Origin: an uncultured Gammaproteobacteria bacterium
Lineage (GTDB): Bacteria > Pseudomonadota > Gammaproteobacteria > Pseudomonadales > Porticoccaceae
NCBI GenBank assembly: GCA_913060555.1
Contig: CAJXRS010000014.1
Span: 1-40,346, forward strand
Direction: 5' to 3'
DNA length: 40,346 nucleotides
Below the pieces are notes generated by a model. That model was given only the letters and a program-made list of their open reading frames with translations. It was not told where the DNA came from and made no database searches. Each line of letters starts with the position of its first letter. Within the stretch, counting starts at the first letter, position 1. This document shows positions 8,095 to 39,341 of this stretch, one piece after another. A program made the translations under genes and the position numbers.

Positions 8095-11000
8095 ATGAAA
8101 TGCTGGTCTTCTCCCCCGCTGGTGCGGCTGCTATTGGTGCTGGTCGCGGGTGTCGCACCGGCCCTTTCCGCCGCCCCTGTGCCCGAGCCCCTGCAGCCCT
8201 GGGCCGGGTGGGTCCTGCGCGATCATCCCCAGCACAGCTGCTACCGGCTGGCCGGCGAATTGCAGCGACGCCAGTGCCTGTGGCCGGAGGTGTTGCGCAT
8301 CGAGCTGACCGCCGGCGGCGCACGCTTTCGGCAGAGGTGGCGCAGCCAGGCCGATGCGCAATGGCTGCCGTTGCCCGGCGAGCGTGACCAATGGCCGCGC
8401 GGGGTGACCCTCGACGGCCGGCCCGCGGCGGTGATCGAGCGGGATGGCCGCCCCGGCCTCTGGGTGGATGCCGGCGACCACGAGGTCGGTGGGCGCTGGG
8501 TCTGGGAGCGGCCGCCACCCTCGCTGGCATTGCCGCCCGCCACTGTGCTCGTCGATCTGCGCCTGGACGATCGCCCCCTGCCGGTAACCCTGGACGGCGA
8601 GAACCGGCTCTGGTTGCAGCCGCGCCCGGGCGGGGATCAGGACGCCGATCGCCTGCAGATCGAGGTGTTCCGCCGCATCGAGGACGGGGTCCCGGTGCGC
8701 CTGTGGACCGAGCTGCGCCTGGCGGTGAGCGGTGCGCCCCGCGAGGTGCTGGTGGGCCGCGCGCTGCCGGCGGAGGCGGTACCCGTGGATCTGGTATCGC
8801 CGCTGCCGGCGCGGCTCGAGGACGACGGCCGCCTGCGCGTCCAAGTGCGCCCGGGGCGCTGGCGGCTGGTGCTGGAGAGCCGTTATCTCGGCCGGCCGGA
8901 ACACTTTGTCATGGAGGTTCAGGAACCCCAATGGCCGGGCCAGGAGCTCTGGGCCTTCCAGGCCGCGCCCGAAGTTCGCGGCCTCCGTCTGACGGGAGCT
9001 CCGGCAGTAGATCCCAGCCGCCTCGACCTGCCCGCGGAGTTGCACGGTCTGCCCGTCTACCTGCTGACGCCGCAAAATCCGCTGCGCGCGGAAGAGGAGT
9101 ACCGCGGTGACGTCAACCCCGCCGCCGACCGCCTGCAGCTGCAGCGCAGCCTGTGGCTCGATTTCGACGGCCGCGGCGCCACGGTGCGTGACCATATCAG
9201 CGGCACGCAGTCGCGGAGCGGACGCCTGCAGGCGCTGCCGGAATTGGCCCTGGGACGGGTGGCGGTCAACGGCGAGCCCCAGGTCATCACCCGCCTGCCG
9301 GGCGGCGATGGTGAAGGCGAAGGCGTGGAGCTGCGCGCCCATGAGCTGAATATCGAGGCGGTCAGCCGCCTGGATGCCGCCGCCGGCGCCACTGTGCTCG
9401 GCTGGGAGCGGGATTTCGACCAGGTCGCCCTGGACCTCCACCTGCCGCCGGGATGGCGGCTGTGGCACGCCGCCGGGCCGGACCACGTGCAGACCTCCTG
9501 GCTTGCGCAATGGAACCTGTGGGATCTGTTCCTCTGCCTGCTGATCGCCGGTGCCAGCGGGCGGCTGCTGGGCTGGCGCTGGGGGTTGGTGGCGGGCCTG
9601 GCGCTGGCGCTCAGCTATCACGAGCGCGGTGCGCCCGTGGCCGGCTGGGTGGCCATGGTCATCGCCATCCCCCTGCTCGGGGCGCTGCCCGCGGGTCGCC
9701 TGCGCTCCTGGCTGCGCGCCCTGGCGCTGGCCGCGCTGCTGCTGTTGGCGCTCGCGGTGCTCGGCTTCGCGGTCCAGCAATTGCGCGCCGCCCTCTACCC
9801 GCAACTGGAGCAGCGCGGGCCGGTTGCCGTTCGCGAACGCGCGGCGCAGCTTCCGACCTTGGCCAGCCAATCCCTGGAGATTGCCGAGATGGCGGATCGC
9901 GCCGTCAAGGCGGCGCCCGCGGCGCCCCCGCCGCCGCGCTACCGCCCCGACGAAAACGCCCAGACCGGGCCCGGTGAGCCCAGTTGGCGCTGGCGTCAGG
10001 TGCAGCTGGGCTGGCAGGGCCAAGTCCGGGCCGACGAAACCCTGCGCCTTTGGTTGTCGCCGCCCTGGCTTGGCCGCAGCCTGTTGGTGCTGCAGGTGGC
10101 CCTGATTGCGCTGTTGCTGTTCGGCCTGGGGCGGGCCCTATGGCGCAGCGGTGCCGATCGCGGTCCCGGCGGCGGCCGGGGCGCTGCCAGCGCGCTGGGA
10201 TTGCTGGTGCCGGTGCTGCTGGGGATCGGCGTCGGGCCGCCGGCGCGGGCCGATTTTCCGCCCCCGGAACTGCTCGAGCAGCTGCGTGGGGAGTTGCTGC
10301 GGCCGCCGGCCTGCCAGCCCAACTGCCAGGGGCTGGTCGGCGCCCATCTGGTGGTGGATCGCGAGGGGGGCTTCACCCTGCGCCTGCGTACCGCTGCCGC
10401 AGCCCCGCTGGCGGTGGCACTGCCGGCGCCCCGGGGTTGGCAACCGGACCTGTTGCTGGGCGACGGCGCACCGCTGCCGCTGGCGCGCATTGGTACAGAC
10501 CCCTGGACGGGTCTGAAGGCTGGCCTGCACGACCTGGAACTGCACGGCAGGATTGCCGGCGATAGCGCCGCGTTCCGCTTTCCGGTAGCGCCGCAGGCGC
10601 TGGCGGTGAACGCGCCCGGCTGGCAGGTCGAGGGCCTGGATGCCGGTCGCCTGCGCGGCGATACCCTGAACCTCAAGCGTGCGCCGTCCGGCGCCGCGGA
10701 GCAGCGCCTGCTGCCGGAGCCGGCGCCGGCCTTCGTGCGTATCGAGCGGCGCCTGACGCTCGATCTGGATTGGCAGCTCACCACCACCGTGACCCGCATG
10801 GCCCCCGCGCAGGGGGCCATCAACCTGGCGGTGCCGCTGCTCCCCGGTGAAAGGGTCATCGGCGATCATCGCCTCACCCCCGCCGGGGCCATGGCGGTGA
10901 CCCTGGGTGCCGAGCAACGTCAGTTCCGTTGGCGTTCGTTGCTGCCGCCGGCGGATCGTCTGCGCCTGGCCGCGCCCGAAACCCCGCACTGGGTGGAAGT

Positions 11001-12108
11001 GTGGCGGGTCGAGGCGTCGCCGCGCTGGCATGTTTCCGCGTCCGGCCTGGCCGCGGTGAAGACGCCGCAGTCGGCCCACAGCGAATGGCGGCCCTGGCCC
11101 GGTGAGACCCTGGTGCTGGCGTTGCAGCGGCCGCGGCCGCTGCCCGGTGCCGCGGTCACCGTGGAGCGTGCCGAACTGGAGCAGAACCTCGGTGCCCGCG
11201 GTGCCGAGCTGCGTCTGGAGCTGGAGCTGCGCAGCAGCCTGGGCGGCGACTACCGGTTGGCGCTGCCGGTGCCGGGAACCCTGCAGCGCGTCGAGATCGA
11301 CGGCGTGGAACAGGCCCGCCCGGAGCAGGATGGCGAAGTGGTGCTGCCGCTGCGGCCCGGTCTCCAGCGTGCACTGGTGACCTGGCGGCTGGAGCAGGGG
11401 GTCGCGTTACGGACTGCCACGGCCCCGCTGGTGCTGCCGACTCCAGCGGCCAATATCGACCTGACCCTGCAGTTGCCCCGGGACCGTTGGCCGCTGTGGC
11501 TGCGGGGGCCGGCTATGGGCCCGGCGATGCTCTACTGGGGAGTGCTGGTCGTGGTGGTGGCGGTCGCCCTGGCGCTCGGCTGCGCAGTGCGCCGGTTGGG
11601 ATTGTCGATCCCGCTCGCGCCCTGGCAGTGGCTGTTGCTGGGGATCGGCATGAGCACCGTGAACAGCGTCGGCAGCCTGGCGGTGGTCGCCTGGTTCTTC
11701 GCCCTCGAAGCTCGCCGGCGCTGGACGCCGCCAGCGCGGGCGCTGATCTACAACCTGGCGCAGCTGGGCTTGATCCTGTTGACCCTGATCGCCGTCGCCA
11801 GTCTGGTCTACACCATCCCGCGCAGTCTGCTCGCGGCTCCGGACATGCAGGTCACCGGCAACGGCTCCAGCCACCTTTTCTACCGCTGGTACCAGGATCG
11901 CAGCGCTGGTGACCTGCCCCAGGGCACGGTCTTCAGCCTGCCCCTGTGGACCTACCGGCTGGCGATGCTGGCCTGGTCGCTGTGGCTGGTGTTCGCCCTG
12001 ATGCGCTGGGCGCGCTGGGGCTGGACCTGCCTGGGCGCCGGTGGCCTCTGGCGCCCGCGGGCGCGGCGACCCCAAGCCGGCGCCGAGGAAGCGGCTGCGC
12101 CGGAATGA
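8095..12108 (+). CDS. Large membrane protein of unknown function with internal duplication
   Basis: A 1337-residue protein I cannot assign to a named family, though its C-terminus resembles unnamed proteobacterial hypotheticals I have met before. Residues 1-28 look like a signal peptide (RLLLVLVAGVAPALSA). Residues about 29-470 are a soluble, probably beta-rich periplasmic part. About 472-565 hold several membrane segments, and TM helices follow near 662-683 and 701-718. About 720-1140 is a second soluble part, and about 1144-1305 a second membrane bundle. The two halves look homologous: each has a Cys pair early (49/61; 740/744), an LP..W.LW..GP motif before the bundle, and a closing RW.Q...-LP.W..R stretch before the last helix. 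No catalytic motif was seen. It has an AGGGA ribosome site and is divergent from the HAD gene. Confidence 0.85.
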   Translation: MKCWSSPPLVRLLLVLVAGVAPALSAAPVPEPLQPWAGWVLRDHPQHSCYRLAGELQRRQCLWPEVLRIELTAGGARFRQRWRSQADAQWLPLPGERDQWPRGVTLDGRPAAVIERDGRPGLWVDAGDHEVGGRWVWERPPPSLALPPATVLVDLRLDDRPLPVTLDGENRLWLQPRPGGDQDADRLQIEVFRRIEDGVPVRLWTELRLAVSGAPREVLVGRALPAEAVPVDLVSPLPARLEDDGRLRVQVRPGRWRLVLESRYLGRPEHFVMEVQEPQWPGQELWAFQAAPEVRGLRLTGAPAVDPSRLDLPAELHGLPVYLLTPQNPLRAEEEYRGDVNPAADRLQLQRSLWLDFDGRGATVRDHISGTQSRSGRLQALPELALGRVAVNGEPQVITRLPGGDGEGEGVELRAHELNIEAVSRLDAAAGATVLGWERDFDQVALDLHLPPGWRLWHAAGPDHVQTSWLAQWNLWDLFLCLLIAGASGRLLGWRWGLVAGLALALSYHERGAPVAGWVAMVIAIPLLGALPAGRLRSWLRALALAALLLLALAVLGFAVQQLRAALYPQLEQRGPVAVRERAAQLPTLASQSLEIAEMADRAVKAAPAAPPPPRYRPDENAQTGPGEPSWRWRQVQLGWQGQVRADETLRLWLSPPWLGRSLLVLQVALIALLLFGLGRALWRSGADRGPGGGRGAASALGLLVPVLLGIGVGPPARADFPPPELLEQLRGELLRPPACQPNCQGLVGAHLVVDREGGFTLRLRTAAAAPLAVALPAPRGWQPDLLLGDGAPLPLARIGTDPWTGLKAGLHDLELHGRIAGDSAAFRFPVAPQALAVNAPGWQVEGLDAGRLRGDTLNLKRAPSGAAEQRLLPEPAPAFVRIERRLTLDLDWQLTTTVTRMAPAQGAINLAVPLLPGERVIGDHRLTPAGAMAVTLGAEQRQFRWRSLLPPADRLRLAAPETPHWVEVWRVEASPRWHVSASGLAAVKTPQSAHSEWRPWPGETLVLALQRPRPLPGAAVTVERAELEQNLGARGAELRLELELRSSLGGDYRLALPVPGTLQRVEIDGVEQARPEQDGEVVLPLRPGLQRALVTWRLEQGVALRTATAPLVLPTPAANIDLTLQLPRDRWPLWLRGPAMGPAMLYWGVLVVVVAVALALGCAVRRLGLSIPLAPWQWLLLGIGMSTVNSVGSLAVVAWFFALEARRRWTPPARALIYNLAQLGLILLTLIAVASLVYTIPRSLLAAPDMQVTGNGSSHLFYRWYQDRSAGDLPQGTVFSLPLWTYRLAMLAWSLWLVFALMRWARWGWTCLGAGGLWRPRARRPQAGAEEAAAPE

Positions 12109-20567: not shown

Positions 20568-20637
20568 CACGGACTAATAGTGGCTGATACTTATCGAAGC
20601 CGGCGCGGTGGCGCCGGGAGAGGAGACCGGACGGCGG

Positions 20638-21819
20638 TCAGCTGAACGCCTGGATCCCGGTCTGGGCGCGGCCCAGGATAAGCGCGTGGACGTCGGCGGT
20701 GCCCTCGTAGGTGTTGACCACCTCCAGGTTCACCATGTGGCGCATGACCGGGTATTCGTCGGAAATGCCGTTGCCGCCGAGCATGTCGCGCGCGGTGCGG
20801 GCGATCTCCAGCGCCTTGCCGCAATTGTTGCGCTTCATCATCGAGATCAGCTCGGGCGCCAGCCGGCCGGCATCCTTGAGCCGGGTGGCGCGCAGGGCGC
20901 CGAGCAGGCCGAGATTGATGTCGGTCTGCATCTGCGCGAGCTTGAATTGAATCAACTGGTTGGCGGCCAGCGGGCGGCCGAACTGCTTGCGGTCGAGGAC
21001 GTACTGGCGGGCGGTGTGCCAGCAGGTCTCGGCGGCGCCGAGTGCACCCCAGGAGATGCCCAGACGTGCACTGTTGAGACAGCTGAAGGGCCCCTTCAGA
21101 CCCTGCACATCGGGCAGCAGCTGGGTTTCGGGGACGAACACCTCGTCCATCACGATCTCGCCGGTGACCGAGGCGCGCAGCGCCAGCTTGCCCTCGATGC
21201 GCGGCGCCGACAGGCCCGTCATGCCGCGCTCCAGGATGAAGCCGCGGATGGCGCCGTCGTCGGTCTTCGCCCAGACCACGAAGACATCGGCGATGGGCGA
21301 GTTGGTGATCCACATCTTGTTGCCCGTCAGCCGCCAGCCGCCGTCGACGGTGCGGGCGCGGGTCTGCATCGAGCCCGGGTCGGAGCCGTGATCGGGCTCG
21401 GTGAGTCCGAAGCAGCCCACCCACTCGCCGCTGGCCAGCCTGGGCAGGTACTGCTCGCGCTGCGCCTGGGTGCCATAGGTGTAGATGGGGTGCATCACCA
21501 GGCTGGACTGCACGCTCATCATCGAGCGGAAGCCCGAGTCCACGCGCTCCACCTCGCGGGCGATCAGCCCGTAGCTGACGTAGTTCACGCCCGGGCAGCC
21601 GTAGCCCTGGATGGTGGCGCCGAGCAGGCCGAGTTCGCCCATTTCGTTGAAGATGGCGCGGTCCGTGTGCTCGTCGCGGAACGCCTGGCGAACCCGGGGC
21701 AGCAGCTTGTCCTGGGCATACTGATGGGCGCTGTCGCGCACCATGCGCTCCTCGTCGCTCAGTTCGTTGTCGATCAGGAAGGGGTCTTCCCAGTTGAAGG
21801 TCGCCCAGTCGTCCGCCAT
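20638..21819 (-). CDS. gcdH: Glutaryl-CoA dehydrogenase
   Basis: GcdH is an FAD acyl-CoA dehydrogenase that oxidises and decarboxylates glutaryl-CoA to crotonyl-CoA in lysine, tryptophan and benzoyl-CoA breakdown. The 393-residue product matches this subfamily rather than generic dehydrogenases. Specific blocks are [37 protein letters not shown] and [19 protein letters not shown]. The catalytic Glu372 sits in [24 protein letters not shown]. The ATG at 21819 follows GAGAGG and gives [14 protein letters not shown], a GcdH-like start. It is divergent from alr with about 130 bases between. Electrons would pass to ETF, which is not encoded here. Confidence 0.93.
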
Positions 21820-21952
21820 GCCCGCCTCTCGGTCGCTCGTTTCGCAGCAGGGCGCCACTATAACGGCGCTCGGGGCGCCCGCAAAGCCAGGTCGCTTGTG
21901 GGGATCGTGGCGCGCTGCCACCATAGGCGCCGCCGCCGACCCGGAGTCCGGT

Positions 21953-23056
21953 TTGAGTCGCCCCGCCTGCGTCACCGTCAACCTCGACCACCTGCGCCAC
22001 AACCTCGATGTGGCCCGCCGTTACGCCGCCGGAGCCCATGTGCTGGCGATGATCAAGGCCGACGCCTACGGCCATGGCGCCGTGCCGGCGGCGCGGGCGC
22101 TGGCCGCGCGCTGCGGGGGCTTCGGCGTATCTTCGCTGGCGGAGGCCATCAGGTTGCGCGAGGCGGGCGTCGACGCCCGGATCCTGCTGGTGGCGGGCTG
22201 CTTCGCGGCCCGGGAGCTGGCGGAGGTCGCGCGCCACGACCTGCAGATCGCGGTACACGACGACTGGCAGCTGCAGGCCCTGTCGGCGGCCTCCCTGCCG
22301 CGGCCGCTGGTGGTGTGGCTCAAGATCGACACCGGCATGCACCGGCTCGGCTTCTCGCCCGCCGCCGTGCGCGCCGCCCATGGTCGACTCGCCGGCTCGG
22401 CCAATGTCGCCGAAATCCGCTTCATGACTCACTTCGCCCGGGCCGACACGCCGGAGGATGCCTTCAACCATAGCCAGCAGCAGACCTTTGCTTGCGCGGC
22501 TGCGGGGCTGGCGGGGGCCCGCAGCCTGGCCAATTCGGCGGCCCTGGTGGCCCTGCCGGAGAGTCGCGGCGACTGGGTGCGGCCGGGGATTCTGCTCTAT
22601 GGCGCCAATCCCTTCGTCGATCCGCACCCGGTCGCCGCGGAACTGAAACCCGTGATGACCTTTGCCTCGCGGCTGCTGACGGTGCGCAGCCTGGTGGCCG
22701 GCGAGGGCACCGGCTATGGCGGCGACTGGGTGGCGCCGGCGCCGACCCGGGTCGGGATTGCCGCCATGGGTTATGGCGACGGCTATCCGCGCCACGCGCC
22801 GACCGGTACACCGGTGCTGGTGCGGGGTCGGCGCACGCGGATCCTGGGCCGCGTGTCCATGGATCTGGTGGCCGTCGATCTGGAGCCGGTGGCCGCTGCC
22901 GCCGTGGGTGACGAAGTGGTCTTCTGGGGTGAGGGACTGCCGGCCTGGGAAGTGGCGCGGCATGCCGGCACCATTGCCTACGAACTTTTCACCGGCATCA
23001 ATGCCCGGGTGCCCGTGCGCTATGTCGGCGGGCCGGTCAGCGCTGCTTGCGCTTGA
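21953..23056 (+). CDS. alr: Alanine racemase
   Basis: Alr interconverts L- and D-alanine for peptidoglycan. The 367-residue PLP enzyme carries the Schiff-base Lys35 in [11 protein letters not shown] and the second catalytic base Tyr255 in GTGYGGDW. It also has [12 protein letters not shown] and [11 protein letters not shown]. The best start is TTG at 21953, with GGAG 7 bases upstream, giving (M)[17 protein letters not shown]. No in-frame ATG lies between the divergent gcdH start and the first conserved strand. The stop overlaps the end of the convergent SPOR gene by 20 bases. D-alanine made here would feed the MurF substrate used later in the window. Confidence 0.94.
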
Positions 23057-27104: not shown

Positions 27105-27474
27105 CGGTGCTGAAGGCGTCGCGCAGCCATTCCACCGCGAAGGGTTCGCCACCGGCCTCGGCCACCGGCATCAACAGCATGGCATCGAACCGGCACGGGG
27201 GTTCGGCTCCGGGCAGCTGTGCCAGGTAATGGCGCGCGGCGGTGACGATGCGCCGGCGCTTGCGCCGGTCGATACTTTCCAGGGCGCCGCCATGACTGGG
27301 TCCCGAGCGCATGCGCACCTCCACGAAGGTCAGGGTCCCCGCGTCTTCGGCGATGATGTCGATCTCGCCCTGGGGTACCCGATAGTTGCGCGCCAGAATA
27401 CGCAGGCCGCGGCCACGGAGGAAGGCCGCGGCGGTCTTCTCCGCGCGGGTGCCGCGGCGCGCCGCCAGGTTCAC
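27094..27474 (-). CDS. yraN: UPF0102 family protein YraN
   Basis: A 126-residue UPF0102 protein with a PD-(D/E)xK nuclease-like core. It shows RGTRAEKTAAAFLRGRGLRILARNYR, then GEIDIIAEDAGTLTFVEVRMRS with the Asp and Glu of the presumed metal site, and the basic stretch DRRKRRRIVTAARHYL. The biochemical role is unproven; the fold suggests a DNA or RNA processing enzyme. It sits between lpoA and diaA as in E. coli and Pseudomonas, and its ATG overlaps the lpoA stop by 4 bases, so translation is probably coupled. Confidence 0.94.
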   Translation of the reverse strand: MNLAARRGTRAEKTAAAFLRGRGLRILARNYRVPQGEIDIIAEDAGTLTFVEVRMRSGPSHGGALESIDRRKRRRIVTAARHYLAQLPGAEPPCRFDAMLLMPVAEAGGEPFAVEWLRDAFSTDDC

Positions 27475-29243
27475 GTGCCCGACTCGGCCGGCGACAGCGG
27501 CGCCACGCGCCCATTGCGGAATCTGGCCCAGGGCTGCAGCCGCGTTACCCGGCCGCTGCCGTCGAGCATCAGCAGGCCGGTCTGTCCGTGCACGGGCTGC
27601 GCCAGGCCGGGCATGCCGTCGGCGAGTTGGGCGTGCAGCAGGTAGCTGTCGACGCCCAGGGCGAACAGTTGTTGGTGTGCCGGCGGCAGCTGGTCGTCGG
27701 GGCGCGGCACCAGCTGTCCCGGGGCGGCCAGCGTCCAGGGCGAGGCGTTGAAGCGGATATTGCCCAGATCCCGATCCCGCGCCGGATCCGGGGTTCCCGA
27801 GTAGATCGCCGAAGTCGCGTAGATGGGCAGATCGCCGGCGTAGAGAAATTCCAGCGTCGGCTGGATCTGTCGCCCCTGGGTGGGGTAGGCGACGAGGAAA
27901 ACCATGTCGAGGTCGCCGCGGCGGCGCGGCGGTTTGGCGTCCCCGCCCGCGCCGGCCGGTGTCGCGCTGTCCGTCGGGCGCGGCGCCAGCAGTGGGCGCA
28001 GGACGGGGGTGAAGTCCTTGAGTGCCATGTCGTAGTGCACGGCCTCTCGCACTTCTCCACCCAACTCCCGGAAAGTGTCGGTGAAGGCGCGCAGTGCCCG
28101 GCTCCCCCAGCCGGTGTCCGGTACCAACGCCAGGGCGCTGCGCCGGCCGTCGCGCCAGGCGGTATGGGCGGCGGCTTTGGCTTCATCCGCAACCGAAAGG
28201 CCGAACTGATAGAAACCGAGGTTGCCCGTTGCGGTGTCGGACTCCAGGTAGTTCAGCGCCAGGACCGGCACCGGAAGCTGGCCGCGGTCGCGGATTCTGC
28301 GCAGCAGCTCGGGTTCGATCGGGCCGATCACCAGCTGGGCGCCCTCGTCGACCGCGCGCTGGTAGAGCGCCAGCACGTCGTCCGATGCGGTGTCGTAGAA
28401 GCGGATGTCCGGGGGTTGCACGCCGCCGGTCCGCGCCGCGAATGCCGCCGCCAGGAAGCCGTCGCGCAGAATCCCGGCGGCGGTGGCGTAGTTACCGCTC
28501 TCCGGAAGCAGCAGGGCGACCCGATTCAGGGCCTGCACTTCCTCGGGAGCGAGGATGCGGGCCCGCTCCACCCCGGGCGCGGCACCCACCGCCGGTGTCG
28601 GTTCGGTCTGGCGGCCGGCCAGCGCCAGCTGGTACCAGCTGTGCAGGCGCGGGTCTGCGGGTTCTGCGGCGAGCTTGCGGAGCATGGAGGTGGGGGTCTG
28701 CTGCAATACCGTCCAGATCCGTTGCTCGACCCCGGTCCGCACATCCGCGTCGTCGAGTTCGGCGGCCAGCGTGGTGTAGGCGGACAGGCTTTCCGCGGTC
28801 TCCCCGAGCAGGCCGAACAATTCGCCGCGCAGGCGCAGCCAACGCTGTCGTCGGTCTCCAGTGAAGGTCTTGCCGAGCGCGGTTGCGGCCGGTGCGGTGA
28901 GCAGATTCCGGGCGCGCAGGATTTCGCCCTCCTGGAGGGCGGCATCAGCGTAGCCGAGCAGGTATGCTCCGCGCGGCGCTTGCGGCAGCGCATCGGGATC
29001 GATCCGGGAGTAGAGTTGCAACGCTTGGGCGGTGGCGCCTGCTTCCTGTTCGCTCAGGGCGGCGGCCAGCAGCTCTCGGGCGCGCGTCGCCGTTGCGGCC
29101 TCGGTCGAGGCCCGGTCGACGACCGGAACCGTTTCGGTGGCGGCCGGCGTGCGCTGCGGTGTGGTACATCCGGCAAGCGCCAGGATCAGGGTGATGATGC
29201 CCAGCAGTTGGACGGGAGGAGAACGGGGAATGATGGCCGGCAC
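27471..29243 (-). CDS. lpoA: Penicillin-binding-protein activator LpoA
   Basis: LpoA is an outer-membrane lipoprotein that spans the periplasm to activate PBP1A. With GTG at 29243 the product is 590 residues, with lipobox LALAGC (Cys26) after a signal ([16 protein letters not shown]). The N-terminal half (about 35-230) is helical and TPR-like ([30 protein letters not shown]). The C-terminal half is a periplasmic-binding-protein fold ([47 protein letters not shown]). No in-frame ATG lies between 29243 and the signal sequence, and the ORF-track N-terminus is antisense to rsmI. The start codon therefore lies inside the 5' end of divergent rsmI. The ribosome site is weak, so the exact start is uncertain. 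Confidence 0.88.
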
Positions 29244-30066
29244 CCTGTATGTAGTGGCAACACCGATCGGCAATCTGGGCGATATGGTACCCCGCGCCGT
29301 GGAGATACTCAAAGCGGTTGACCTGGTCGCCGCCGAGGATACCCGGCACAGCGGTCGGCTGCTGCGACATTTCGGTATCCGTGTGGCGCTGGTCTCATAC
29401 CACGATCGCAGTGGCCGCGACCGCGGCGAGGCGGTGCTCGCGGCGCTCGCCGCCGGCGACGACGTGGCGCTGATCAGTGACGCCGGCACGCCGCTCATTT
29501 CCGATCCGGGATACCGCCTGGTGCGCGCCGCCCGCGATGCCGGTTTCAGGGTCTCGCCGGTGCCCGGTCCCTGTGCCGCGGTGGCGGCCCTGAGCGCCGC
29601 GGGGTTGCCCAGCGACCGCTTCGTGTTCGAGGGTTTTCTGCCGGCGCGGGCCGGAGAGCGCCAGCGGCGGCTGGCGGAGCTGGCGGCCGAGCCGCGCACC
29701 CTGATTTTCTACGAGGCGCCGCACCGCATCCTGGATACCCTTGCCGACTTGCAGGCCGCCTTCGGCGCAGGTCGCGAGCTGGTGCTGGCCCGCGAGCTCA
29801 GCAAGGTTTTCGAGACCTTTGTCGCAGGTACCCTGGCCCAGGTCCTCGAGCGCGTCGCCGCGGATCCCGACCAGCGCCGCGGCGAAATGGTGCTGCTGGT
29901 GGCCGGCGCCCCGCAAGCGGCGCCCGAGGCTGGCGACTGGGATGCCGTGTTGCAGCCGCTGCTCGAAGAGCTGCCGTTGAAGCAGGCAGTGGCGCTGGCG
30001 GCCCGGATCACCGGAGGCGCGCGCAATCTGCTCTATCAGCGGGCACTGCTGCTGCGCGAACGCTGA
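29230..30066 (+). CDS. rsmI: 16S rRNA (cytidine1402-2'-O)-methyltransferase
   Basis: RsmI 2'-O-methylates C1402 of 16S rRNA, whose base is N4-methylated by RsmH, encoded at 33505. The 278-residue protein starts [27 protein letters not shown]. It then shows [17 protein letters not shown], the AdoMet motif [18 protein letters not shown] and [36 protein letters not shown] and [12 protein letters not shown] are also characteristic. Either of two adjacent ATGs (29230, 29233) can start it, with GGGAGGAG upstream. It is divergent from lpoA and overlaps the proposed lpoA start by 14 bases. The rsmI/lpoA pair matches yraL/yraM of E. coli. Confidence 0.96.
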
Positions 30067-33022: not shown

Positions 33023-33478
33023 GTGTTTCGCGGCAGCAACGAGATCAACATGGATGCCAAGGGACGCATGGCGGTGCCGTCCCGGTATCGGGACGCGTTG
33101 CTGGCCCAGGGCGACGGCCAATTGGTTGCGACCATCGACATCGAGGACCGCTGCCTCTTGCTGTACCCGCTGCCGGCCTGGCAGGAGATCGAGACCCAGA
33201 TCGCACGTCTGCCGACCTTCAATCCCGATACCCGCCGTCTGCAACGGCTACTGATCGGGCACGCACGGGAGCTGGATCTCGACGGCAATGGTCGGGTGCT
33301 CATTCCCCCCGAGTTGCGCACCTACGCCGGACTGGAAAAGCAGGTGGTGCTGGTCGGCCAGGGTCACCGCTTCGAGTTGTGGAGCGCGGATAACTGGGGC
33401 GTCCGCCGCGAGGAATGGCTCGCCGAGGCCGCCGGCGGGCGGGCGATCCCGGCGGAAATGCAGAGCCTGTCGCTGTAG
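33023..33478 (+). CDS. mraZ: Transcriptional regulator MraZ
   Basis: MraZ is a ring-forming DNA-binding protein with two SpoVT/AbrB-type domains that represses the division and wall cluster. The 151-residue product has domain 1 NEINMDAKGRMAVPSRYRDAL and domain 2 HARELDLDGNGRVLIPPELRTYAGLEKQVVLVG. GTG at 33023 is the best start, with GCGGAGG 4 bases upstream, giving (M)FRGSNEINMDAKGR as in other MraZ proteins; the ORF-track start at 32978 lies in the operator region. It is the first gene of the cluster, and its likely operator lies about 30 bases upstream. Confidence 0.94.
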   Translation: MFRGSNEINMDAKGRMAVPSRYRDALLAQGDGQLVATIDIEDRCLLLYPLPAWQEIETQIARLPTFNPDTRRLQRLLIGHARELDLDGNGRVLIPPELRTYAGLEKQVVLVGQGHRFELWSADNWGVRREEWLAEAAGGRAIPAEMQSLSL

Positions 33479-33504
33479 CGCCCCGGGCGCCGGCGGAGCG
33501 CACC

Positions 33505-34431
33505 ATGGGGGGCGGACACCAGACGGTATTGCGGGATGAGGCGGTGACGGCCTTGTTGACGGATCGGGATGGGTTTTACGTGGACTGTACCTTTGGCCGC
33601 GGCGGCCACAGCGCCGAACTGCTGCGGCGCCTCGACCCCGGCGCACGCCTGCTGGCGATCGATCTGGACCCCGAGGCCTGCGCCGCGGCCGCTGCGCAGG
33701 CGGCCGAAGATCCGCGCCTGGAGATCGTCCAGGGCTCCTTTGCGGAGCTGCCGGCGCTGCTCGATGCGCGCGGCAGGCGCGGCCGGGTCGCCGGGATCCT
33801 GCTCGATCTCGGGGTGTCGTCGCCGCAGCTGGACGACGCGGCGCGGGGTTTCAGTTTCCTGCGCGACGGCCCGCTGGACATGCGCATGGATCCGCAGCAG
33901 GGCGAGAGCGCCGCGGCCTGGCTGGCGCGGGCCCGGGAGTCCGAGATCGTCGCGGTGCTGCGCGACTACGGCGAAGAGCGCCACGCGCGGCGCATCGCGC
34001 GCGCCATCGTGAGCGCCCGCGCCAGGGCGCCGCTGGAGCGCACCACGCAGCTCGCGGAGGTGATCGCCGCCGCCCATCCGGCCTGGCAGCCCGGGCGCCA
34101 TCCGGCGACCCAATCGTTCCAGGCCATCCGCATCCAGGTCAACGGCGAGCTGGATGCACTGCGCGCGTTGCTCGCCGAGGTCATCGAGCTGCTCCAGGTG
34201 GGCGGGCATTTGGTGGTGATCAGCTTTCATTCGTTGGAGGACCGGTTGGTCAAGCGCTTCATTCGCGACGCCGAGCATCCCAGGGTGCCGCGCGGCCTGC
34301 CTATCGAGGAGTCCCGGCTGCCGCGCCGACTGCGCAGGCTGGGCCGCGCCCAGCGAGCCTCGGCGACGGAACTGGCGACCAACCCCAGGGCGCGCAGTGC
34401 GGTGCTGCGCGCCGCGGAGAAGTTGGCGTGA
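33505..34431 (+). CDS. rsmH: 16S rRNA (cytosine1402-N4)-methyltransferase
   Basis: RsmH (MraW) N4-methylates C1402 of 16S rRNA; RsmI, encoded at 29230, adds the 2'-O-methyl to the same nucleotide. The 308-residue enzyme has HQTVLRDEAVTALL, AdoMet motif I YVDCTFGRGGHSAELL, AIDLDPEA, LLDLGVSSPQLDDAARGFSF, MRMDP and VISFHSLEDRLVKRF, all RsmH signatures. The ATG at 33505 follows GGAG at a short distance; the ORF-track start at 33415 is within mraZ. The stop overlaps the ftsL GTG, a coupled junction. Confidence 0.96.
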   Translation: MGGGHQTVLRDEAVTALLTDRDGFYVDCTFGRGGHSAELLRRLDPGARLLAIDLDPEACAAAAAQAAEDPRLEIVQGSFAELPALLDARGRRGRVAGILLDLGVSSPQLDDAARGFSFLRDGPLDMRMDPQQGESAAAWLARARESEIVAVLRDYGEERHARRIARAIVSARARAPLERTTQLAEVIAAAHPAWQPGRHPATQSFQAIRIQVNGELDALRALLAEVIELLQVGGHLVVISFHSLEDRLVKRFIRDAEHPRVPRGLPIEESRLPRRLRRLGRAQRASATELATNPRARSAVLRAAEKLA

Positions 34432-34703
34432 CACCGCTCCGCGAGCGCCAACTGGTGGCCGTGCTGTGGCTCGCGGTGCTCGCCTCGGCGCTGGCCGCGG
34501 TGTCCGTCAGTCACGAATGCCGGCGCCTCTACGCCCGGCTCGCGGAGTCGGAACGCACCGAACACCACCTCCAGGTGGAATGGGGCCGCTACTTGCTGGA
34601 GCGCAGCACCTGGGCGTCTCCGGGACGGATCGAAAAGCAGGCCCGAGAGGAATACGGTCTGCGTGCGCCGGCCCTGGATGAAATCATCAGGATGCGGCCA
34701 TGA
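34428..34703 (+). CDS. ftsL: Cell division protein FtsL
   Basis: FtsL is a bitopic septum protein that joins FtsB and FtsQ and activates FtsWI. The 91-residue product has a short cytoplasmic tail, one membrane helix (about 8-28, LVAVLWLAVLASALAAVSVSH) and a periplasmic coiled-coil (CRRLYARLAESERTEHHLQVEWGRYLLE). It ends with RIEKQAREEYGLRAPALDEIIRM, the conserved FtsL C-terminus. GTG start at 34428 overlaps the rsmH stop (GTGA). Its stop overlaps the ftsI ATG by 4 bases. Sequence conservation is low in this family, but size, topology and position make the call safe. Confidence 0.95.
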   Translation: MTPLRERQLVAVLWLAVLASALAAVSVSHECRRLYARLAESERTEHHLQVEWGRYLLERSTWASPGRIEKQAREEYGLRAPALDEIIRMRP

Positions 34704-36460
34704 TCCGCAGATCACCCCGCCCGCAGCGCGCGATCGCCTATTGGCGGTACCTGGCAGTGGTCGCCGGGCTGGTGGCGCTGCCCGTGCTGGCGCTGTGGCA
34801 GGCCGCCAGCCTGCAGGTGCTGGAAGGCGGCGAGCGCGGCGCGCGCTTTCTGCAGAATCAGGGCGACGCCCGCACCCAGCGCGCGCTGCCCATCCCCGCT
34901 TACCGGGGGTTGATCACTGATCGCCGCGGCGAGCCGCTGGCGGTCAGCACCCCGGTGGTGACCCTCTGGGCCGATCCCCGCACCCTGCCCGGGGATCGCG
35001 AGTCGCTGGCACCGCTGGCGCGCGAGCTCGGCGTTTCGGTGGAGCGCATCCAGCAGCTGCTGGCCGCCAACGCCGAGCGCGAGTTCATGTTCCTGGCGCG
35101 GCAATGGAATCCCGGCGACGCTGCCAGGGTGCTCGACCTGGACATCCCGGGAGTCCATGCCCGCGATGAGTTCAAGCGCTATTACCCGGCCGGCGAGGTG
35201 ACCGCGCAACTGGTCGGCTTCACCAACATCGACGACCGCGGCCAGGAGGGCATGGAGCTGGCCTACGACCACTGGCTGGCCGGCGCACCCGGTGAGCGGC
35301 GGGTGATCCGCGATCGCAAGGGCCGGGTGATCAAGGACATCGAACTGGTGCGCAGCGAAAAGCCGGGCAACGATCTGGCGCTGTCGATCGATCTGCGCCT
35401 GCAGTATCTCGCCTACCGGGAACTGCGCGCGGCCCTGGAGCAGCATCGGGCGGCGGCCGGCACGGTGGTGATGCTGGATGTGCATACCGGGGAAGTGCTG
35501 GCCATGGTCAGCCAACCCTCGTTCAACCCCAATGATCGCGGCCGCATCGACAACGGCGCGTTGCGCAACCGTGCGCTCACCGACCAGCTGGAACCCGGTT
35601 CGACCATGAAGCCGTTCACCATGGTGGCGGCCCTGGAGAGCGGCCGCTACCGGCCCGATACCCCCATCGACACCGCGCCCGGCTGGATTCACTTCGGCCG
35701 CAAGACCTATCGCGATCACCGCAACTACGGTCTGCTGGACCTCACCGGCGTGCTCGCCAAGTCGAGCCAGGTGGGTACCACCAAGGTGGCCATGACCCTG
35801 GAGCCGGAACAGATTCGCAATGTCTTCGAGCGCGTGGGCCTCGGCCAGGCGTTGGGCACGGGTTTCCCCGGCGAGAACACCGGCAGTCTGCCGGTGCGGC
35901 GCAAGTGGGCGCTGAGCGAGCACGCCGCGCTGGCGTTCGGCTACGGGATTACCACAACCCCCCTGCAACTGGCCGCCGCCTACGCGGTGCTTGCCAACAG
36001 CGGCCTCCGCCAGCCGGTTTCGCTGCTGCGTCGCAGCCCGGGCGAGACCGCCAAGGCCGAGCGGCGCCAGGTGATCGCTCCGCAGATCGCCGCCCAGGTG
36101 CGCACCATGATGAAGGCGGTGGTCGAGCGCGGCACCGCCACCCGCGCCGCCATCCCGGTGTACGCCGCGGCCGGCAAGACGGGCACCACTCATAAGGTCG
36201 GCCCCGGTGGTTATCAGGACCACCGCTATGTGGCCCTGTTTGCGGGCATGGCGCCGGCGGAGGCGCCGGAGCTGGTCACCGTGGTGGTGATCGACGATCC
36301 CCGCGCCGAGGGTTACTTCGGCGGCCTGGCGGCGGCGCCGGTGTTCGCGGCGGTGACCTCCGGCGCCCTGCGGCTGTTCGCGGTGCAGCCGCCGGGCGCG
36401 CCGCAGCGGATCGCCGGCGATGCCAGTCCCGCGGAGCCGGTCGGGGGAGGTGCCGGGTGA
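34700..36460 (+). CDS. ftsI: Septal peptidoglycan transpeptidase FtsI (PBP3)
   Basis: FtsI crosslinks septal peptidoglycan with FtsW. The 586-residue class B penicillin-binding protein has a membrane helix at about 14-36 and a pedestal domain with IPAYRGLITDRRGEPLAVS and RYYPAGEVTAQLVGF. The transpeptidase domain has Ser301 and Lys304 in EPGSTMKPFT, the second motif Ser355-Ser356-Gln357 (KSSQVG) and the third motif KTGTT from Lys493. The second motif is SSQ where SxN is standard (SSN in E. coli), a notable change. The ATG overlaps the ftsL stop. The C-terminus ends in a Gly/Pro-rich tail and its stop overlaps the murE start. Confidence 0.96.
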   Translation: MIRRSPRPQRAIAYWRYLAVVAGLVALPVLALWQAASLQVLEGGERGARFLQNQGDARTQRALPIPAYRGLITDRRGEPLAVSTPVVTLWADPRTLPGDRESLAPLARELGVSVERIQQLLAANAEREFMFLARQWNPGDAARVLDLDIPGVHARDEFKRYYPAGEVTAQLVGFTNIDDRGQEGMELAYDHWLAGAPGERRVIRDRKGRVIKDIELVRSEKPGNDLALSIDLRLQYLAYRELRAALEQHRAAAGTVVMLDVHTGEVLAMVSQPSFNPNDRGRIDNGALRNRALTDQLEPGSTMKPFTMVAALESGRYRPDTPIDTAPGWIHFGRKTYRDHRNYGLLDLTGVLAKSSQVGTTKVAMTLEPEQIRNVFERVGLGQALGTGFPGENTGSLPVRRKWALSEHAALAFGYGITTTPLQLAAAYAVLANSGLRQPVSLLRRSPGETAKAERRQVIAPQIAAQVRTMMKAVVERGTATRAAIPVYAAAGKTGTTHKVGPGGYQDHRYVALFAGMAPAEAPELVTVVVIDDPRAEGYFGGLAAAPVFAAVTSGALRLFAVQPPGAPQRIAGDASPAEPVGGGAG

Positions 36461-37956
36461 TGGCCGCCGAACACCAGCCGGGCATCCGCCTCGCCGAGCT
36501 GGTCACCGAGATCGCGGTGCCGGCGTCCGGCGCCGGCCTGCGGGTGAGCGGTCTCGCGCTCGACAGCCGCACGGTGCGCCCGGGCGACCTGTTCTTCGCA
36601 CTGCGCGGGCAGCGTCACGACGGCCGGGAGTTTCTCGCCGCCGCCGCCGCAGCCGGCGCTGTGGCGGCGCTGGTCGACACTGCGGCACCGGCGCCGGGCG
36701 CGCCATTGCCGGTGTTCGAGGTGGCGGAACTGGCGCAGCGGATCAGCGCCATCGCCGGCCGCTTTTACGGCGAGCCCAGCCATGCGCTTGCGGTGACCGG
36801 CATTACCGGCACCAACGGCAAGACCACCTGCTGCCAGTTGCTGGCCCAGTTGTTCACCGCTCTGGAAGCGCCCGCCGGGGTGATCGGCACCCTGGGTGCC
36901 GGCCTGCTCGGTGCCGCGCCGCAGGATACGGGCTTCACCACCCCCGATGCCGTCGCCACCCAGCGCCTGCTCGCCGAACTGCGCGCCGCCGGCGCGCGCC
37001 GGGTGGCCATGGAAGTGTCCTCCCACAGCCTGGCGCAGGGCCGGGTGGCGGCGGTGCGCTTGCACACCGCACTGTTCACCAACCTGAGCCGGGACCACCT
37101 CGATTACCACGCGAACATGGACGCCTACCGCGAGACCAAGGCGCGCCTCTTCCGCCAGCCGGAACTCCGGGTCGCGGTTGTCAACCTGGACGACCCGGCC
37201 GGTCGCGTCATGGCCGCCGCACTGCCGGCGAAGGTGCGGCGCCTGGGTTACTCCGCGCGCGGCGCCGGCGCCGAACTGCGCGTCGTGCGGGCGGACCTGG
37301 GTCCGGCCGGTGTGCGCGCCCGGATCGCCACCCCCTGGGGCGCGGGCGAGCTGGTCAGCCCACTGCCCGGGGCGTTCAATCTCGCCAATCTGCTGGCGGT
37401 CATCGCCGCGGCCTGCGGCCAGGGCTTCGCGCTCGACGCGGTATTGGCCGCGGTGCCGCGGTTGCGCGCCGCGCCCGGGCGCATGCAGGAGGTGGGCGGC
37501 GGCCCGCCCAGGGTGATGGTCGACTACGCCCATACCCCGGATGCCCTGCAGCAGGCGCTGGCGGCCTTGCGTCCGGTTACCCAGGGGCGGCTGTGGTGCG
37601 TTTTCGGTTGTGGCGGCGAGCGCGATCGGGGCAAGCGCCCGCAGATGGGCGCGATTGCCGCGCAGGATGCCGATCGACTGGTGCTGACCAGCGACAACCC
37701 GCGTGGCGAGGATCCACAGGAGATTCTCGCCGAGATCCTCGCCGGCCTGCCCGCGCGGCAGCGCGATGCAGTGGCGGTCATGGCTGACCGCCGCCAGGCC
37801 ATCGAACACGCCATCGCCGCCGCCGGTCCCGAAGACTGTGTGCTGATCGCCGGGAAGGGACACGAGACCTGGCAGGAGATCCGCGGGGTGCGCTGGCCGT
37901 TCGACGACGCTGCGGTCGCGCGCGCCGCGCTCGCTGTCCGGGAGGCGGGCCGATGA
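36457..37956 (+). CDS. murE: UDP-MurNAc-L-Ala-D-Glu:meso-diaminopimelate ligase
   Basis: MurE adds the third stem-peptide residue in cytoplasmic peptidoglycan precursor synthesis. The 499-residue Mur ligase has the N-terminal uracil-binding domain (SGLALDSRTVRPGDLFFALRG), the P-loop GITGTNGKTT (116-124) and SSHSLAQGRV. YHANMDAYRETKARLF carries the carbamylated-lysine position, and VDYAHTPDALQQAL follows. DNPR at 413-416 is the meso-diaminopimelate specificity motif, so the wall should be DAP type. Start is GTG at 36457 overlapping the ftsI stop, or ATG at 36460; GGGGGAGG lies upstream of both. It overlaps murF by 4 bases. Confidence 0.96.
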   Translation: MMAAEHQPGIRLAELVTEIAVPASGAGLRVSGLALDSRTVRPGDLFFALRGQRHDGREFLAAAAAAGAVAALVDTAAPAPGAPLPVFEVAELAQRISAIAGRFYGEPSHALAVTGITGTNGKTTCCQLLAQLFTALEAPAGVIGTLGAGLLGAAPQDTGFTTPDAVATQRLLAELRAAGARRVAMEVSSHSLAQGRVAAVRLHTALFTNLSRDHLDYHANMDAYRETKARLFRQPELRVAVVNLDDPAGRVMAAALPAKVRRLGYSARGAGAELRVVRADLGPAGVRARIATPWGAGELVSPLPGAFNLANLLAVIAAACGQGFALDAVLAAVPRLRAAPGRMQEVGGGPPRVMVDYAHTPDALQQALAALRPVTQGRLWCVFGCGGERDRGKRPQMGAIAAQDADRLVLTSDNPRGEDPQEILAEILAGLPARQRDAVAVMADRRQAIEHAIAAAGPEDCVLIAGKGHETWQEIRGVRWPFDDAAVARAALAVREAGR

Positions 37957-39341
37957 CGATTCGTCCCCTGACCCTTTCGGAGGCCGCGGGCGCCTTCGGC
38001 GGTACCCTGCTCTATCCGGATTGCCGGTTTCGCCGGGTATCCACCGACACCCGGCGGCTGCGCCCGGGCGAGCTGTTCGTGGCGCTGCGCGGCGCGCACT
38101 TCGACGCCCACGACTTTCTGCCCGAGGCCGCGCGCCAGGCCTGTGGCCTGGTGGTCGAGCGCGCCGACAAGGCGTTGCTGCTGCCGCAATGGGTGGTGCC
38201 GGACACCACGCGGGCGCTGGGCGAGTTGGCCACCCTGGCCCACGCGCAGTTCAGCGGCCCGGTCATTGGCATCACCGGCAGCAGTGGCAAGACCACCGTC
38301 AAGGAGATGACCGCGGCCATTCTCCGCGGCCTGGCCCCGGTGCTGGCCAGCCGCGGCAATTTCAACAACCACATCGGTTTGCCGCTGACCCTGTTGTCCG
38401 GCGAGCCCGAACAGCGCTTCGCGGTGCTGGAAATGGGTGCCAGCGGTGCCGGCGAGATTGCCTACCTGGCGGAAATCGCGCGCCCCTCGGTGGCGGTGGT
38501 GACCAATGTGCTGCCCGCCCACATCCAGGGTTTCGGATCCCTGGACGGGGTGGCGCGCGGCAAGGGAGAAATCTATCGGGCGCTGGGTCCGCGCGGCACC
38601 GCGGTGTTCAACCTCGACCTCGAGGCCCGCTGGCTGGAGTCGTGGCGGGCCAATCTGCCCTGCCTGGAGTCGATCAGCTTTGCGGTCGACGATCCCGCCG
38701 CCGAGGTCACCGCCGCCGATCTGCGCCTCGACGCCGAGGGCCGCGCCAGCTTTCTGCTGCGCGCGCCGGCGGGGGAGGTGCCGGTCAGCCTGCAGCTACC
38801 TGGCCGCCACAATGTCACCAACGCCCTGGCCGCGGCAGCCTGTGCGCTGGCCGCCGGCGCCGACCTGGCGGCGATCGCCGCCGGGCTGCGCGCGGTACTG
38901 CCGGCGTCGGGTCGCATGCAGGTGCGCCGCGGCGCCCGCGGCGCGCGCCTCATTGACGACAGCTACAACGCCAATCCGGGCTCGGTGCGTGTCGCCATCG
39001 AGACGCTCGCCACCTATGGGGGCCGGCGTCTGCTGGTGTTGGGAGACATGGCCGAACTGGGCGCCGATGCCGCCGCGCAGCACCGCGAGATCGGGAGTTA
39101 TGCCCGCCAGTTGGGCATCGAGGGGCTCTGTGTCTGGGGTCCCCTGAGTGCGCTGGCGGCGGAGAGTTTCGGCGCCGGCGCCGAAGTGTTCGCCGACAAG
39201 GAGGCCCTGGGGCGGGCGTTGCTCGCCCGGCTCGACGCCGACACCACGGTACTGATCAAGGGTTCCCGCTCCGCGGGGATGGAAGACATCGTCCGCATGC
39301 TCGACGGGGGGAATGCGCGCCATGCTGCTCTGGCTGACTGA
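37953..39341 (+). CDS. murF: UDP-MurNAc-tripeptide:D-Ala-D-Ala ligase
   Basis: MurF adds D-alanyl-D-alanine to complete the UDP-MurNAc-pentapeptide, using D-Ala that depends on Alr (21953). The 462-residue ligase shows [27 protein letters not shown], the P-loop [14 protein letters not shown] (from residue 106), [16 protein letters not shown] and [31 protein letters not shown] and [19 protein letters not shown] close the central and C-terminal domains. The ATG at 37953 overlaps the murE stop by 4 bases. The 3' end overlaps the start of mraY by 20 bases. Confidence 0.96.

Follow-up and report, generated by a model that had tools for sequence, protein, structure and literature searches.

What is made by a gene whose 1337-residue product appears to cross the membrane many times and matches no protein family of Pfam or NCBIfam in sequence? 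This question is raised by an open reading frame (ORF) located at 8095-12108 on the forward strand of a 40,346-nucleotide stretch (hereafter the window; GenBank assembly GCA_913060555.1, contig CAJXRS010000014.1, positions 1 to 40,346) from an uncultured gammaproteobacterium of the Porticoccaceae. An earlier reading of the window from its letters alone (the original prediction) had described an orphan membrane protein that looks like a tandem of one unit in two copies, each combining a periplasmic part and a membrane bundle. Following up on this proposal, we found that the ORF belongs to a conserved family, still without a name, of very large proteins of the bacterial inner membrane, and that it encodes two paralogous exported units derived from one ancestral duplication, always fused in the relatives examined. 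The best overall explanation, a non-enzymatic periplasmic binding platform carried by a membrane core and formed by paired units, is tentative, with a probability of about 0.35.

A conserved and unnamed protein family

The codon-position G+C content fitted the frame of the ORF along its full length, while the reverse strand was broken by stops, and the gene occurred in a single copy in its own genome. The orphan status was borne out by one uninterrupted ORF without Pfam match (hmmscan, E up to 1), without NCBIfam match (E up to 0.1) and with chance-level matches only in sequence and profile searches of PDB chains, so that no confident match to a characterised family emerged from these three resources. 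Pfam searches on 22 relatives returned nothing but three isolated chance-level matches, no enzyme family was matched in the Pfam and NCBIfam searches of the protein and its relatives, and a literature search retrieved no paper on the family.

Relatives were detected in 24 of 249 sampled genomes across Pseudomonadota, nearly all at full length and with identities of roughly 33-43%; in the order of the source genome, that genome was the only labelled one of the sample to match. When GTDB genomes were scanned with the alignment, at least 549 of the first 587 candidate stretches proved to be relatives, and a scan of genome contigs with a single sequence as query gave no match. The best 80 of these at least 549 relatives were mainly affiliated with Methylococcales, followed by Chromatiales, Thiotrichales, Cellvibrionales, Aeromonadales, Mariprofundia and Magnetococcia, and also took in Desulfobulbales, Myxococcota and one Nitrospirota metagenome-assembled genome (taxon names of such genomes were used as given). 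The sole annotated record found was WP_015452075.1, a hypothetical protein of an Azoarcus plasmid; the copy carried by plasmid pAZKH of Azoarcus sp. KH32C (L142, 5890-9984) has a 4-base overlap with an isoaspartyl peptidase gene. In a 1.6 Mb genome, a match to the C-terminus of the family (G195:C92:7461-7652; L024, L051) contained two in-frame TAG codons, which may point to the remnant of a pseudogene or to stop recoding. The family alignment comprised 102 sequences, at least two of which represent the same locus reached via two routes, and displayed 174 positions conserved at 93% or more.

Two paralogous units from one ancestral duplication

The landmarks on which the two-copy proposal was founded were in place, namely the cysteines at 49/61 and 740/744, the LPPGW block from residue 444 and the LPRDRW block from residue 1121. 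The self-comparison of the halves that had been proposed as a check was significant: profile-profile alignment of residues 24-697 with residues 698-1325 reached a score of 137 (probability 98.6, 468 columns), whereas neither reversed profiles nor any of eight block-shuffled controls exceeded 24. Across the 468 aligned columns, predicted secondary structures agreed at 79% of positions; shifted controls averaged 49% and did not exceed 56%. HMMER cross-matches further confirmed the presence of two copies of one unit, since a unit 2 profile searched in 200 genomes matched unit 2 first and, within the same proteins, unit 1 next, its remaining matches being two short C-terminal fragments and nothing further, and a unit 1 profile searched in 22 carriers gave the reverse pattern, unit 2 being found from unit 1. 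Neither half-profile retrieved a single-unit homologue in these genomes; the single-unit relatives sought by the original prediction were thus not found, every relative examined being a double unit.

The offset of roughly 630-680 residues noted between the halves needed correction. The register offset of the ectodomain and first membrane helices was 677-691 residues, with C49-C740, C61-C744, W100-W782, P451-P1128 and R564-R1242 as aligned pairs, and only at the hairpin and last helix did it drop to about 634, because the linker of unit 1 is longer. The significance of the match came from the ectodomain and the whole-unit comparison; helix order was identical in both half models, and the membrane bundles compared alone gave a non-significant E of 0.079. 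The last beta module of half 2 also weakly resembled both the first module of its own half (E 1.6e-4) and that of half 1 (E 7.5e-4).

A tree of all units divided them completely into unit 1 and unit 2 sequences, indicating one duplication before the spread of the family. Both halves were present in 102/102 aligned sequences and the cysteine pairs were essentially invariant, which likewise argues for a single and ancestral event.

Predicted topology of the units

Family-averaged hydropathy and charge gave two outside-facing regions, one following residue 27 and the other following residue 719, and positive loops inside, a topology satisfying the positive-inside rule. AlphaFold models of the two halves (mean predicted local distance difference test score, pLDDT, 87.1 and 90.1; predicted template modelling score, pTM, 0.59 and 0.60) displayed the same order of elements: an amphipathic helix, about 400 residues of beta domains, four helices, a beta-hairpin and a long last helix (Table 1). 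The view of each unit as a periplasmic part plus a membrane bundle is supported.

Table 1. Coordinates of the ORF, of its predicted features (positions in the window) and of related loci in other genomes
Feature	Position	Strand	Basis or remark
Entire ORF of the two-unit membrane protein (P0001; 1337 aa)	8095..12108	+	single intact ORF
N-terminal signal peptide / first hydrophobic helix, unit 1 (res 1-27)	8095..8175	+	hydropathy; sequence MKCWSSPPLVRLLLVLVAGVAPALSAAP
Periplasmic part of unit 1 (res 28-470) with amphipathic helix, Cys49/Cys61 and all-beta domains	8176..9504	+	hydropathy, model
Invariant Cys49 and Cys61, predicted disulfide 1	8239..8277	+	C in 101/101 sequences covering the column
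Unit 1 four membrane helices (res 475-567)	9517..9795	+	hydropathy, model
Periplasmic linker of unit 1 with its beta-hairpin, QTGPGxPxWxW...W.G.V (res 568-656)	9796..10062	+	model, conservation
Unit 1 last membrane helix (res 657-687)	10063..10155	+	hydropathy, model
Internal signal-peptide-like segment, A-x-A site before D (res 693-719)	10171..10251	+	residue pattern in family
Periplasmic part of unit 2 (res 720-1142) with amphipathic helix, Cys740/Cys744 and all-beta domains	10252..11520	+	hydropathy, model
Invariant Cys740 and Cys744, predicted disulfide 2	10312..10326	+	C in 102/102
Unit 2 four membrane helices (res 1147-1246)	11533..11832	+	hydropathy, model
Unit 2 periplasmic beta-hairpin PDMQxxGNxS...W.QDR (res 1247-1283)	11833..11943	+	model, conservation
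Final membrane helix of unit 2 (res 1284-1313); C-terminus predicted in cytoplasm	11944..12033	+	hydropathy, model
M23 / zinc-ribbon + FGE-sulfatase group loci	L046:6846-7793(-), L042:11763-12707, L048:3740-4675, L049:9741-10670		

A probable internal signal peptide

A hydrophobic stretch ending in ARA had been noticed ahead of unit 2; it was likened to a second signal peptide and regarded as consistent with a fusion between two exported units. Its signal-peptide-like character and the fusion through it are supported by a conserved site, with the position shifted to residues 693-719 rather than about 701-720. From its residue pattern, this segment is a probable internal signal peptide: residue 719 was A/G/S/T in 101/102 sequences and residue 717 A/V/S/T in 83/102, 718 was variable, residue 720 was D/E/Q in 86/102 and residue 722 was P in 97/102. 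In many members the segment looks like a textbook signal peptide, e.g. LLICLLLPIAPVHA directly followed by DYPS.

Such likeness to true signal peptides, with a conserved A-x-A site before [DE]xP, suggests a possible polyprotein, in which signal peptidase I would cleave the internal signal peptide and release two separate membrane proteins as the working units. We regard this cleavage as a serious possibility, at somewhat less than even odds. Beyond the conservation of residues 717, 719, 720 and P722, it is favoured by the motif [AVST]-x-A-notP at most 12 residues before P722, found in 91/102 sequences versus 4-35/102 at other outward helix ends (61/102 at the N-terminal signal peptide), and by the shortness of the helix predicted there (12 residues, pLDDT 54-66, when the main helices are mostly above 90). 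However, a crude cleavage-site matrix derived from a set of 12 textbook signal peptides of E. coli ranked the site first among internal positions in only 30/102 sequences (top five in 71/102), and the (-3,-1) rule at a position strictly fixed to P722 held in 68/102, and more often at other columns; several unrelated columns also obeyed the plain rule. The gene was also never split among the relatives examined, and a small-residue turn behind a membrane helix could mimic the pattern. A comparable arrangement is that of the cytochrome b/c1 precursor FbcH of Bradyrhizobium, in which one gene encodes two membrane proteins separated by an internal signal peptide; FbcH, however, joins unrelated proteins of a respiratory complex, whereas the present units are paralogues and their cleavage is only predicted. 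The polyprotein question concerns maturation, and is compatible with either a binding-platform or a transporter function.

Fold resemblances and candidate functions

PDB fold searches run separately with each half model retrieved Ost1/ribophorin I, which belongs to the non-catalytic subunits of the eukaryotic oligosaccharyltransferase, as the top match of both (E 2.5e-8 and 1.5e-10, probability 1.00), followed in both cases by M1 aminopeptidase N-terminal domains and related domains. The match to the M1-N/VIT fold covered about 150-180 residues at a probability of 1.00 in two libraries, with root mean square deviations mostly of 4.5-9 A; the search of viral models gave an M1-like aminopeptidase (probability 1.00, 160 residues). 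In both halves the beta domains thus recall the N-domain of M1 aminopeptidases and the VIT-like domain of inter-alpha-inhibitor heavy chains, but neither is matched in sequence and no peptidase domain follows the beta domains in the bacterial protein. In Ost1/ribophorin I, a pair of similar beta-sheet domains makes up the luminal part, which has a membrane anchor (PMC7226087), and earlier BLAST and hidden Markov model (HMM) searches gave no promising prokaryotic relative for the non-catalytic subunits of the oligosaccharyltransferase (PMC4973528). Whereas Ost1 has one membrane helix, the bacterial protein has about six per unit, in two units, and shares no sequence match with it. From the half models, the M1-N-like module is the firmer part of the assignment and the Ost1-like tandem a lead.

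In the binding-platform reading, each unit would be held in the inner membrane while its M1-N/VIT-like beta domains, about 400 residues long, project into the periplasm. A disulfide would lock the start of these domains; they would be followed by four helices, then by a beta-hairpin lying at the face of the membrane, and lastly by one more helix. The two units would pair side by side with pseudo-two-fold symmetry. Less surely, the internal segment would either be cut by signal peptidase I, yielding a 1:1 heterodimer, or be retained as a seventh helix. The resulting stand-alone platform would hold or present an envelope substrate, either a protein or a lipid-linked glycan, in an Ost1-like working mode and would not depend on an operon partner. 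The functional part, drawn by analogy with non-catalytic subunits of the endoplasmic reticulum, has a chance of about one in three. A more elaborate version, i.e. a self-paired polyprotein whose two paralogous subunits, split by signal peptidase I, would each carry an Ost1-like M1-N/VIT tandem and form a prokaryotic counterpart of the Ost1 ectodomain in architecture, is doubtful.

In favour of the platform stand the homology of the halves, the separation of the two units in the tree, the four invariant cysteines, the topology and the shared order of elements in both models, the Ost1 and M1-N fold matches, and the lack of an enzyme family match or of a recurrent operon partner. Several observations weigh against it. 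Template modelling (TM) scores to Ost1 were only 0.13-0.24, so that the match reflects strand order and local shape rather than a global superposition, and unrelated multi-beta viral models reached E 1e-5 with the same query; together these values make the Ost1 resemblance only a lead. The Ribophorin_I HMM (PF04597) had no match in the source genome at E up to 10, and STT3 was absent from this genome and from 19 of the 24 carriers. A pTM of 0.6 leaves the orientation of the domains undefined, and the substrate is a guess. A role as an oligosaccharyltransferase accessory was rejected, given the lack of STT3 in these 19 carriers, including the source genome: STT3-like genes did occur in 5/24 carriers versus 4/225 non-carriers, but three of the five belonged to one genus and the enrichment appeared lineage-bound (by genus, p 0.03).

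Two other functions were considered. Pumps of the RND/SecDF type are built as 2 x (1 + periplasmic domain + 5), and only if both hydrophobic N-segments stay uncleaved would the hydropathy and the half models of the present protein agree with this layout, 2 x (1 + ectodomain + 5), with two repeats and a large periplasmic domain behind the first helix of each; it could then be a twelve-helix transporter that carries a lipid or polymer through the inner membrane or away from it. This is unlikely, as no ACR_tran, MMPL or SecD/SecF Pfam family matched the protein or its relatives, no RND/SecDF structure appeared among the PDB fold matches shown, and the ectodomains are all-beta, a different class from the alpha/beta porter domains. 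In addition, the conserved polar helix residues D477, E510 and R564 of unit 1 lack conserved counterparts in unit 2, and no membrane-fusion-protein or outer-membrane gene recurrently adjoins the family gene. Far less probable still is a thiol-redox protein whose two cysteine pairs would shuttle electrons in the periplasm. Four cysteines are indeed invariant and the second pair forms CxxxC, but both pairs depart from CxxC and CxxCH, and Pfam and NCBIfam gave no match to a Dsb, thioredoxin or cytochrome family. Moreover, the two cysteines of the first pair lie 10-26 residues apart depending on the sequence, and this variability argues against a catalytic or haem motif. Since 90/102 proteins contain no periplasmic cysteine beyond these four, the pattern is that expected of structural disulfides.

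Gene neighbourhood

In the window, the gene is flanked by a divergent folA-thyA-lgt-HAD group and by SDR, TauE/SafE, birA and coaX genes. At about 100 other loci, neighbours varied by lineage and no gene recurred across lineages, so that the protein probably acts by itself or has partners whose genes lie at other places. A conserved operon partner was consequently rejected, only lineage habits being observed: a HAD hydrolase occurred in five loci, and in one group the family gene lay between an M23 peptidase gene and a gene combining a zinc-ribbon with an FGE-sulfatase (formylglycine-generating-like) domain, an unusual domain pair (Table 1); at least one member of this group (L045/L121) is from Magnetococcales. 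A gene identified as Mpl-like (UDP-N-acetylmuramate peptide ligase) by visual inspection, without family search, was located directly upstream on the same strand at L057:6547-7896 and at six other loci, mostly of Methylococcales. These neighbourhoods favoured none of the roles of scaffold, transporter partner or sensor. An exosortase/PEP-CTERM link was also discarded, this system occurring in 3/24 carriers versus 39/225 non-carriers, i.e. no positive association.

Elsewhere in the window, an LppC/LpoA-like gene was located at 27474-29699 on the reverse strand, and a division and cell wall cluster with mraW, a PBP transpeptidase and two Mur ligases at 33415-39341 on the forward strand. A 790-codon ORF on the reverse strand (20594-22963) had no Pfam match at E up to 1e-5; it is overlapped by an alanine racemase gene on the forward strand (21743-23056), and is therefore probably, at least in part, a shadow ORF.

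Implications

Our results delineate a large and strongly conserved membrane protein, distributed over hundreds of species and several phyla and yet without entry in Pfam or NCBIfam. Its duplication, conserved predicted disulfides and possible internal signal peptide make specific tests feasible. If the Ost1-like ectodomain is real, the family would offer a clue from prokaryotes to a eukaryotic subunit for which earlier searches for relatives had failed (PMC4973528).

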